Below the pieces are notes generated by a model. It did no database searches, was not told the origin of the DNA, and saw nothing but the letters and a program-made list of their open reading frames with translations. The position numbers were made by a program, and so were the translations under genes. Positions 12,373 to 26,263 of a DNA stretch of 30,346 bases are shown here, in pieces. Numbering within the stretch: position 1 is the stretch's first letter; each line of letters begins with the position of its first letter. The DNA is from a virus. The stretch covers positions 1 through 30,346 of IMG/VR virus record IMGVR_UViG_3300023184_000383. One strand, written 5' to 3'.

Positions 12373-12381
12373 TTATTCTCC

Positions 12382-15300
12382 TTATAGACCATCAGGTAAA
12401 GCAATAACACGCAAATCTTTAATCTTAGGAACATTTACGGTGCTATCACCCAACATCACCACTTTAACTGCAAACGTAGCAAAATCGGTAAACGTTTGTG
12501 TGCCAGCAGAGTTTGTATATGTAATCTGATTTGATGGAACACCAGCAGTTCCTGGAGCAAATGTCAACTCACGGAAGTCACTTTCATCGGCAGACACGAA
12601 ATTATTATTGCTGATTTGTGTCAGTAGATTCCAAGATTTATCCTCGAATGGTTCGGCATCACCAGGCGATAAAAACTTACCATAGACATAGATGTTAGAA
12701 AGTGCTGGTTTATAACCGAGTAAATATACACGAAGATCGCCAGAGGTAAATCCTGGTGCTAACTGAACCTTACGAGTCAGATATCGAACCTTTGCGTTAC
12801 CGCCTTCCTTTTTATCTTCACCATTAATTACAATAGACGCACCGTTTGCTGAAGCACCTACAGTGATACCACCCGAATAGGGTAGTCCACCAGATACCGA
12901 TGTACATAAAGATGCAAACAGATTGATTGTTGGTGAAGTTAAATAACCCGTACCAGAAGAAACTATCCATGCACGACTCAATCTACCACCGACAACGTTT
13001 GCGCTTGCGGTTGCGCCTGAACCACCACCACCAGATAAACTTAGTGAATAGATACCATCTTGCATATTTTGACCAACGTTAGCAACAACAATATCAGAAT
13101 TAGATAATCCTAAATTATTAATCTTATTCTCAATAGTCAATAAATTGAATCGAGTAACATCAATCATTGGAGAAATATCTGGATTACTACTTTGCAGTGT
13201 TGTTCTTAAAATGAATGTTGTATTGCCAGTTGTTGTACTTAAAACACGGCGACCAAAACCATCCACCATTTTATAATCATTGTTTGGAATGAATGGTAAG
13301 AATCCATGAGTTGCACCAGTTCCGTCTTGTTGTGAGATGAAGTTATAGTCAATCGATGTATTCGACAACACCACATCAGTTGACATAACTTGCATCAAAT
13401 CATACACTGCATTCGCAGTCTTACTGGACATATCAGCTTCAAAATAAGCATAACCGTAGTTGCCTGTGTATACTTTTTTCTGTAGGCTGAACATCATGTC
13501 GATATTTTGATCTGCGGTCCAAGTTGAACCATTTTGAGATTCGAAGAATGAACCTGTATATGCTTGTTTAGAAATTTTTGCAGAAGATGCTAAATTGATT
13601 TTATCTTTTTCTGCAACGAATGTTTCGTAACCAATACTGTTGGACAGTAGAACAATTGAATGTTCACCCGGTAACAACAATACGGGAACATCAAATCTAA
13701 ATTCAGTATACTTTGTTGAATCTTCAATGTTTGGTATTGTGCTTGTATTAACTTTATCTGGAGTCAACACTACGTCAGCATAAGGATATACCGTAGACGA
13801 AGATGGATAGCCATTAACTACTGGACGAATTTGTAACTGTACAGGTGCACTTACATCTTTAGTTTTAAAGCAAACCCGAACACTCGACAACATAATACCT
13901 TGTGGGTATTGATCTGAATTGATCAAGAATGTTTCAGCAAGTGGATCGTGATACTTGATCGAAGTTTTTGTAGCAGTACGAATTGATGAAGATACTGAGG
14001 TTCTACTTTCAGATACATCACTTCTTACTACATTAGGAACAAATACCGAAACTGATGTCTCTTGTTTAGTTTGAATCAATCCTTGTGAGAAGAACGAAGC
14101 ATCACCATTTGTCGTTGAACGCTCAACCGTACCTGTAGAATCGTCAATTAATCGGAAAAGTTTTTCACCAGTACGGAAAGTATCTGTAGGTGCAGAGAAT
14201 ATACCAGCAGTTGCACCTTCAATTGAAGTTGTAAGTGTACCAATAGAATATGTCGATGTTGAATCGGGTGTTGTTGTCCATGTGCCAGTTATCTGAGCAT
14301 ATCGAGTATTCGCATTATAAGCAGAAATAACTGCTGATGTACCCGAACCAGTTCCACCAATAATACGAATTGTTTGTCCAACATAATCAGAAGTATTGGA
14401 AGAACCACCTGCATGATAATCAAGTTGAATGTAACTTGAGTTAGCAGCAGTAGCCTTACCGGAATAATGATCTACTGTTGCAGTAATATTACTTTCACCC
14501 GAAGTTGCACCAACCACACGAATACCCCCTGTGGCACCCGACCACGAACCGTATGCGGAACGGGGAATGATATTCGTAAAAAATGCATGATTGTTCGCGG
14601 TCAACACTACAACACCAGAACCCATTAGCGAACCTGTAGCAACATCATAAAATGCCACATCTTCAGGATTACTGATTGTAGTCTGATATGTTAAATCATT
14701 ATTAACAAACTTAATGATGTTTGCACGATAAACATACTTGTCAACATTTGTATTATCAAAGAATGTGTACAGAGTTGTTGATGGTTTAAATCCAGTTCCA
14801 ACAGCAAGGATATTAATATTACGCATAAACTGAACAATCGTCACATCAACAACACGATCTCCCAATGATTTGGTAAGTTGTTGTGGTACAATCTGCGACA
14901 AAATTCCTGTACGAGTTTCGTTTGTTGTTTTTGTTTCTAAGAAATCTTGCGTTGTAGTCGTAGTATCTTTTAGTTTTTTACCAGTAGCAGAACGTTCTGC
15001 CGCAGTAGCCTTCGCAGTCGTAGTTGTCGATTTTGCTGCACTAATTGCTCTGGAATCCACGCCTGTCCATGTTGTTTGCCATGAACCCCATGATGTACTT
15101 TGAATTGATGACCAAGCATCACGCGCAGCATCACCACCAGTTAGATCAATATTTTGTGCTTCAATTCGAGTGTCTGATGTCCAAACGTCTGATGGTGGAT
15201 CAAGTTTAACTGAACCAACATAGTTAATAACATTGAAGGGATTAATATTTACCGATTTTGATGCTAGGTTTTGTGTAAGGAATGTTGTAGTTGTTCCACT

Positions 15301-24206: not shown

Positions 24207-26263
24207 TATGCAGTTTCTAATGTTGTACTGATTGCTGTTGGATCATCGATGTCCAATGTAACAATTGTATTTTTATTTGTACTAATAATACCTTTTTCAG
24301 ATTCAACTGATAGGCGAATATATTCATCCGTTGAAGATACTGCTTTTATGTAGATGTCATTTATTTTAACTACACCAACATCATAATCAATAGTACCAGC
24401 CGTGGCATCAACAATTTGACGTTGTGCATTCGAATCGTAATAAACAGTTCTTAGTTCACCAGTACGAGCATCGATTACTGCTTCTGCCGTTGCACCATAC
24501 CCACCACCATCAGAAATAGTTATGGTGGCACGGGTGTAATCGATACCGCGATTGGTCACTTCAATGTTTTGAATCTTACCGTTCACGATAGTTGCGGTAG
24601 CATTTGCTCCAGTACCGTCACCAGTGATTGTGATTGTGGGTGAACTTGTGTAACCCTGACCAGCATTTAAAACATTAATTGCGGAAATTCCAGAGAATGA
24701 TTGTGGTATCTCATCAAATTGAACAACCTGATCCATACCATCGGCATCAACTACTGTGAAGAATGTTGATGATAATTTATTACTAATTGTTCCACGACGA
24801 AGGGGAACATTAAAATAAACTGTGTATGGTTTTGATTGGTCTGTTGAAGGTTTAAATCGTTTTTGAACACGAACCGAAACTTTAGAACCGATGATTGAAT
24901 TAGCATCGGTAGCATCAACAACATCTTGTACTTTAGATAGAATAAACTTGGAATCAAACTTGTCGAGATATGTTTCTTTATAAGCTAAAATAGAATTACG
25001 AATGCCAGTTTTTAACTGATCGGAAGTCAGAGTTGTTTTCTTTGGGTCATATGTTACCGTTGGTGAAATCAACAAGTACAAGTATTCAGGATCACGAATG
25101 ATAGTTTGAACTGTAACAACTGCTTTCGGAGTAATAATCTCATCAATTATTCGTTGCTTTTCTGTGTCGGACAAATAGTAGTTTTGTTTTGGTTTCAGTG
25201 CGATGTATACACGACCATAAGTTGGTGGGGTTTCTTCCTCACCACCCCATACTGAAACTGAATCTACTGAAGGATAATTCTTTTTAATGAATGATTCATA
25301 ATCTTTAAATGTAACCAATCGATTCTGTGTTGTAAACTGAAGTGGTGCGCCAAACTTAATCTCATCTACAGATTCACGTTCCGCACCACCCGCTGCCTCA
25401 CCAACTGGATCAATTGTAAAATTGATTAAGCTGTTGCCTAATGAATCTGCAAGAGTAGCAGTTGCAACAAAGTTATTAGCTTTATTTGCAGCGGTTCCGT
25501 TTGTTATTAAATAAGTAATTAAAACAATTGAACCGTCTTTTATTTTTTTACCGATAACATCATTACCGAAATAAAGATCATATTTTTGACTCTTATTTTC
25601 CTGTAAATAAAATACTGGAGATGATGTAGTTGCTTCAGTAGCATCAGAGGCAAGAGTAAAAACTTCAGATTCAGTACTTGTTGACGAAGGTCGGACAGTT
25701 ACCGTGATTGTCGAAATATCGACACCCTCATCAGGAATTGCGAAAATCTGCTTGGGGTTAGTTGCTTTATCGTATGAATATGAATACGTAACCAACTGAC
25801 CTTCATGAATGGGTAAGTTTAAAAAGTTAAAACTTGTATTTGATTTGGTTGCAATCGTTTCACCAAGAGTTACAAAACCATAACTGATTCCATCAATCTC
25901 ATTTGATAGGAATCGGAAACCTTTAGGAATAGTTACTGTAGCTGAAGTATTGGACGTTGACGATACGGTAAAGTTGATATTTGCTTGTGGTGCTTTGCGT
26001 GAATATGGAACGTAACCAAGAACTTTGGCATGAGAGACAACAGAATCACGAAGCAATGCCGTATCCAAGAATGCTTCGTTGGCAATCATATTTACATAAT
26101 AAGCATTGTAATGGGTATTGTATGCAAGGATATCTAACAATACACTCAGTCCCGAACCCTCAAAATCATAATCGGTAAATTGAGTTTGCCTCTGTAAATA
26201 AGTTTTTAAATTCTGCTTGATCTGATCAAAATCAAGTTCGGTTACTCTTAGACGTTCTGTCAT
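24206..26263 (-). CDS. 6: Baseplate wedge protein gp6
   Basis: 685 residues, close to T4 gp6 (about 660). Family signatures are plain: I-K-Q-N-L (15-19), D-Y-D-F-E-G-S (31-37), [12 protein letters not shown] (42-53) and L-G-Y-V-P (82-86). The central part has the baseplate-J layout, with E-S-V-D-E-I-K then T-F-K-D-Y-E-S-F and later [12 protein letters not shown]. In T4 two gp6 copies per wedge form the ring that joins the six wedges. Residues about 525-590 carry two G-x-G-Y/G-x-D-Y beta units ([14 protein letters not shown]) not expected from T4. It starts one base after the stop of 25. Confidence 0.92.
   Translation of the reverse strand: [685 protein letters not shown]

Follow-up and report, generated by a model that had tools for sequence, protein, structure and literature searches.

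Why do four neighboring baseplate genes of one phage encode copies of the same small glycine-rich beta motif? The genes belong to a baseplate operon of the T4 type, encoded by the minus strand of a 30,346-base virus record (the window, that is, the whole stretch of DNA that was analyzed), whose named relatives are Kyanoviridae-type phages (HTVC008M, Melnitz-3, and S-SM2). The operon runs gp5-like, PAAR, gp25, gp6, gp7-like wedge protein, gp8, DUF4815/VrlC, and then small and glycine-rich proteins; the window does not include a sheath gene of its own. (By sequence reading, the protein at 26699-27004, between the gp25 and gp5-like genes, reads as a PAAR-type spike tip.) All coordinates in the four genes below are on the minus strand.

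The baseplate wedge gene gp6 (24206-26263, 685 aa) has the Pfam Gp6 domains and matches phrog_219 at 4e-163, and its AF2 model aligns to T4 gp6 (3h2t) with a Z score of 22.7 and an rmsd of 3.4 over 271 aligned residues, so by both domains and fold it is a T4-type gp6. The gp7-like baseplate wedge gene (20181-24206, 1341 aa) matches PF23786 (Baseplate_wedge) and phrog_17744; a PDB sequence search gave no match between its protein and T4 gp7, and homology to T4 gp7 is not detectable. The wedge gene gp8 (18608-20164, 518 aa) matches PF09215 (2.8e-8) and phrog_438 and is a T4-type gp8 (33.7 bits to the Phage-Gp8 Pfam family, cutoff 25, and a match to 1n7z at 2.7e-4). Finally, the gene for the DUF4815/VrlC virion protein (12382-18597, 2071 aa) matches PF16075 (1.6e-64) and phrog_358.

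The original prediction placed units of a GxGY motif in gp6 at 24490-24690 (aa 525-592), in the gp7-like protein at 20290-21683 (aa 842-1306), in gp8 at 19140-19260 (aa 302-342), and in DUF4815 at 12900-13040 (aa 1853-1900), and motif units are found at all four places. Its description of the repeat needs revision, however: the repeats, of ~38 residues and three predicted strands each, come two by two and together form the actual module (six strands in total), and the gp7-like protein has three core copies besides the repeat range that had been named.

In gp6, the two-unit module (aa 525-600, 24464-24691) is inserted in the C-terminal domain, as indicated by profile hits, the AF2 strands, and an empty site in outgroups. 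The AF2 strands are at residues 526-536, 543-548, and 551-560 and then 563-574, 579-584, and 589-597, with pLDDT mostly between 78 and 90. The core copies in the gp7-like protein are at aa ~297-375 (site 1, 23082-23318, with a profile hit at aa 299-345), aa ~474-530 (site 2, 22617-22787, also with a profile hit), and aa ~650-701 (site 3, 22104-22259, 48.3 bits). They are followed by a C-terminal array of ~7 modules with module profile hits (aa ~837-1313, 20268-21698), whose period is ~69-70 aa where it is regular. In the AF2 model of the array, pLDDT is mostly 70-90 at aa ~930-1250 and both ends are poor. In DUF4815, the module (aa ~1824-1920, 12838-13128) lies directly ahead of NGEDKKEGGNAKVRYLTRKV; relatives have clear near-consensus copies at the same site (up to 33 bits), directly ahead of an NGEDKK-type motif.

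The copy in gp8 is split. Unit 1 starts with a stretch (aa 195-209, 19538-19582) that is conserved in the gp8 alignment, and the remainder of unit 1 together with unit 2 is at aa 284-346 (19127-19315). Between them, at aa ~215-283 (window 19316-19537), a second small domain (with ISGIGI, TYISSID, and ITLS in that order) is nested within unit 1. As predicted, this gp8 is about 180 residues longer than that of T4 (518 versus 334 aa, or 184 residues), and we infer from the alignment that the nested domain and the module make up most of the difference.

Are these copies homologous? The check that had been proposed, a profile from the gp7-like family, does not succeed in its original form for two of the four proteins: it found gp6 (22.3 and 10.5 bits) but missed gp8 and DUF4815, because the array that seeds it is the most divergent branch. 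The gp6 two-unit profile finds the gp7-like core copies and the window's gp8 (20.2 bits), and all 31 gp8 entries among the matches listed score 14-42 bits. We also used a blind profile, trained on gp6 and gp7-like proteins alone, without gp8 or DUF4815, and compared its scores to those of decoys (reversed or locally shuffled sequences). With this profile, 59 of 75 gp8 relatives exceed every decoy (best 27.3 bits, decoy maximum 5.9), as do 30 of 90 DUF4815 relatives, many of which end before the module site (best 33.3 bits, decoy maximum 5.2). The hhalign probabilities are 99.1% for gp6 with gp8, 98.5% for gp6 with DUF4815, and 97.9% for gp6 with gp7-like core site 3, and controls (a glycine-rich fiber and other domains) reach at most 4.2%. 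Among the 11 pairs tested with column-shuffled controls, no shuffle reaches the observed score. Also, gp6 matches the gp8 PHROG at 8.7e-13. Across gp6, gp8, DUF4815, the gp7-like core, and sites of the array, hhalign probabilities go up to 99%, but some pairs are weaker (gp7-like core site 2 gives 4.7% with gp8 and 23.9% with the array).

A skeptic might propose that glycine-rich beta sequences came to resemble each other without common descent. The motifs have little length and a high content of G, T, and V, and single-unit scores in the window are weak under the blind profile (9.3 bits for DUF4815 and 8.7 bits for the first part of the gp8 module). Nevertheless, convergence is hardly credible: the decoys, the fiber controls, and the column shuffles all score far lower, the two-unit register is kept across genes, and the copies in DUF4815 relatives are near consensus. 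Chance or composition alone is ruled out by the decoys, the hhalign controls, and the column shuffles. As the profile, hhalign, and control comparisons agree, we conclude that one homologous module is present in the four neighboring genes.

Window positions 1-2529, 2936-3835, 5181-8384, and 8735-10390 encode four glycine-rich proteins that contain internal repeats (VDYLVVGGGGGG and LGTPGQGNNGG, among others) and are apparently paralogous fiber-like proteins. Two similar 112-aa proteins between glycine-rich genes (8384-8722 and 10397-10735, beginning MARSYKILGQ and MPRAYRILGQ) are likely to be paralogs. The protein at 8735-10390 has one motif-like stretch at aa ~98-135 (VTSVGSGYIKPDSVINIPG). 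This stretch scores 1-6 bits, or 0.3-4%, against the module profiles, and because these scores are so low we regard it as either a degenerate unit or a chance resemblance.

How did the module come to be in four adjacent genes? It is absent from T4 gp6 and gp8, in agreement with the original prediction: a search of the complete T4 genome with the module alignment gave no match, which excludes these two proteins as hidden carriers. Among the relatives, the module is in the gp7-like and/or gp8 proteins of S-SM2, HTVC008M, Melnitz-3, phiM12, and OC, and in S-SM2 it is also in the gp14 neck protein. The gp8 and gp7-like core copies are old, as they are common to S-SM2, HTVC008M, phiM12, and others. 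Six outgroups (T4, S-SM2, Melnitz-3, HTVC008M, phiM12, and OC) have an empty site in gp6, and the DUF4815 insertion site is empty in outgroups as well. Judging from these distributions, gp6 and DUF4815 gained their modules after gp8 and the gp7-like core did, and the array came later still. A tree of the gp6 core without the insert, which is a quick tree with long outgroup branches, implies that the gp6 module was gained once, that the gp7-like array arose once, and that the DUF4815 module changed three times. The array has 6-11 modules where it is present, and it is missing from 45 complete relatives of 834-882 aa.

Copying between genes appears to have been caught in one case. In a single metagenome contig (IMGVR_UViG_3300005805_000543), gp8 has an extra in-frame insert of 81 aa; among the matches listed for this insert, the best ones are without exception to gp7-like arrays from related phages (9e-17 for the top match). 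The junction is seen in that contig alone, and the same contig's gp7 does not contain a near-identical donor. The original prediction of spread by local duplication thus holds as far as copying goes, given the variable tandem array and the gp7-type module in this gp8. It does not hold as a single local burst: the copies are of different ages and the module is also in other proteins. Separately, in two relatives the gp7-like gene is split into two overlapping frames (L005, 9202-11430 and 11405-13240; L043, 6764-7651 and 7492-10623). We considered a programmed frameshift that adds the array and rejected it as less likely; the splits are at different places and are therefore likely to be sequence errors.

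The module is not confined to the wedge. No Pfam or NCBIfam family covers it above cutoff. By itself, the gp6 module matches 17 PHROGs with E values no higher than 0.1, with annotations that include wedge, virion structural, tail fiber, head closure, and hub/lysozyme, and the array matches a head decoration PHROG family at 2e-4. In other phages it is found in neck, tail-fiber, hub, and sheath proteins. A tblastn search located it, at 53% identity, in three further phages (Salmonella phage PT1 and Escherichia phages ep3 and Bas97), where it is part of the sheath or tail protein. In the ep3 sheath, the module is at aa ~148-224 (58 bits); when this protein is aligned to the solved R-pyocin sheath, the stretch ahead of the module matches residues 2-134 and the stretch behind it matches residues 135-383. 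As the ep3 and Bas97 modules fall between residues 134 and 135, the R-pyocin sheath represents the empty site.

A link to the T4 sheath also emerged. The Pfam family Gp18_dom_I (PF22639) matches the window's gp7-like protein with 11.9 bits (E of 0.23) and two relatives with E values of 9.2e-5 (the best, 22.8 bits) and 2e-4; neither the window protein nor the relatives reach the curated cutoff of 27 bits. Because of these weak hints, we compared the module directly to an alignment of gp18 domain I from nine T4-like phages. Sites 1 and 2 of the gp7-like core are the best relatives of domain I, with hhalign probabilities of 94.9% and 96.1%, respectively, and controls at or below 0.6%, and no column shuffle reaches the observed score. 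Given these probabilities and scores below the Pfam cutoff, we consider the module to be a relative of Gp18_dom_I and not a member. The gp6, gp8, and ep3 modules give 2.5%, 1.0%, and 2.9% with domain I, so their link to it is transitive, through the gp7-like core sites. The module thus appears to be distantly related to T4 gp18 domain I, the outermost knob of the sheath, and T4 would have its relative there.

Domain I, a barrel of six strands, projects from the sheath as its outermost part and makes no sheath-sheath contacts; the baseplate and the retracted long tail fibers bind it, and the gp18 changes G106S, S175F, and A178V block fiber retraction (PMC3004832). These letters fit this gp18 sequence only if the Met is uncounted, in which case G106 coincides with the PGxxY glycine. 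Read by eye, S175 and A178, in SSGLAAV, would correspond to the GxGAxA loop of the second unit. The G106 change could merely disturb the fold.

Our preferred explanation, which we think is probably correct, is that this is a mobile module that faces outward and serves for display or docking. The sequences themselves show that the copies are homologous, that they were inserted at sites left empty in outgroups, that tandem copy number changes, and that one relative has a gp7-type copy within gp8. The units would all derive from a single beta module that moves into structural proteins, as an insert or as an addition at an end, at positions that the recipient fold can accommodate. By analogy with gp18 domain I, each module would project outward, and the core assembly would be held together without the modules. 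Their loops could then bind other parts of the virion (retracted fibers or the baseplate periphery) or, weakly, surfaces, and the several copies on each wedge would provide multiple docking points around the baseplate. We infer outward display, and docking of fibers or baseplate parts, from this analogy. Surface decoration, which the original prediction had raised as a possible common use, has indirect support from the links to the sheath. Extra domains of sheath proteins generally sit at a distance from the tube, and roles in stability or in adsorption have been proposed for them (PMC9230969). For ep3 and Bas97, insertion into the sheath is seen in the sequence, and exposure is taken from the literature (PMC9230969).

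A role internal to the wedge is possible because T4 gp6, gp7, and gp8 touch each other. The modules of gp6, the gp7-like protein, and gp8 might pack together and stiffen the wedge, with no display. In T4, gp6 is bound by a platform made up of gp7 and gp8, and gp8 is in contact with both gp7 and gp6 (PMC3004832); the module copies sit on exactly such neighboring proteins, and virion stabilization has been proposed for extra sheath domains (PMC9230969). This seems unlikely, though, because the module is also in neck and sheath proteins, because the baseplates of several outgroups presumably assemble with a gp6 that has no module, and because an array that ranges from 0 to 11 modules is hard to square with fixed contacts.

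Still less likely, in our view, is the other use that the original prediction raised, carbohydrate contact, in which the modules would themselves bind carbohydrates of the host or the environment. Such binding has been suggested for phage Ig-like domains. Like those domains (PMC6867891; PMC10684548; PMC9230969), the module is promiscuous and optional, comes in repeats, and often sits on tail parts. The PHROG matches do include tail fiber and, for the array, head decoration. Against this idea, no lectin-like match stands out, the array has no PDB match below an E of 0.001, and most of the conserved residues, glycines along with one tyrosine, look structural.

To return to display and docking, a broader and rather doubtful extension is that domain I belongs to a large unrecognized family of mobile display barrels on the sheath, neck, wedge, and fibers of contractile phages. 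The two conserved loops would be a general fiber-docking surface, and the barrels would be multiplied to alter how fibers are held.

That baseplate proteins undergo domain shuffling is known in general terms, and the available portion of a paper on it does not name this module (PMC10684548). Across a large aquatic family of T4-like phages, several tail-tip proteins carry the module. If our interpretation is correct, then a module family explains why some very abundant aquatic phages have larger baseplate proteins than T4, and a family that is unnamed as such in the curated libraries we searched is tied to a solved T4 domain with fiber-retraction mutants. It would also demonstrate domain movement between adjacent structural genes, supply a profile for annotators to use, and predict for structural biologists where the extra baseplate mass is located.

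Neither PDB sequence searches nor Foldseek gave a convincing solved relative. Foldseek and VIA searches of the PDB with the array model gave nothing convincing (VIA Z under 3); as these searches used the array model and not a module folded alone, the absence of a match is no evidence of a new fold. BurrH (4cj9), at 7e-4 in the PDB sequence search, was rejected because it matches via many weak stretches and is a protein that we take to be a helical repeat. Foldseek also matched the array model to BFVD entry A0A3G5AH46 from a giant virus (Sylvanvirus sp., E of 3.7e-6), which may reflect a shared beta repeat only.

Four known systems are closest. Cyanophage S-SM2 (gp7, gp8, and gp14) and phiM12, OC, and HTVC008M (gp8) have the same module at the older sites; unlike in the window, the site in gp6 is empty in these phages and no clear module is seen at the VrlC site. 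The R-pyocin-type sheaths of ep3 and Bas97 also have a two-unit module (53% identity to the gp6 module over ~75 aa, hhalign 99%), but in one copy and in small (~40 kb) myophages of another group. T4 gp18 domain I (PF22639; 3FOA) is likewise an inserted domain, of ~90 aa, with six strands and a similar PGxxY motif. It differs in that the module is in wedge, neck, and other proteins, in that gp6- and gp8-type copies match it transitively only, and in that T4 domain I has a helix whereas the AF2 model of the gp6 module has six strands and no helix. Finally, the Ig-like domains of phages (in Hoc, tail, and sheath proteins) are also small beta domains that are optional, often repeated, and copied between classes of structural proteins, and the module has the same character, with its 17 PHROG families and its pattern of presence and absence. 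However, the module consists of two sets of three strands with GxGY and GxGAxA motifs, no Ig-like Pfam family is found in the window proteins or the module set, and none stands out in the fold search. The module works like the phage Ig-like domains but is probably not a member of them.
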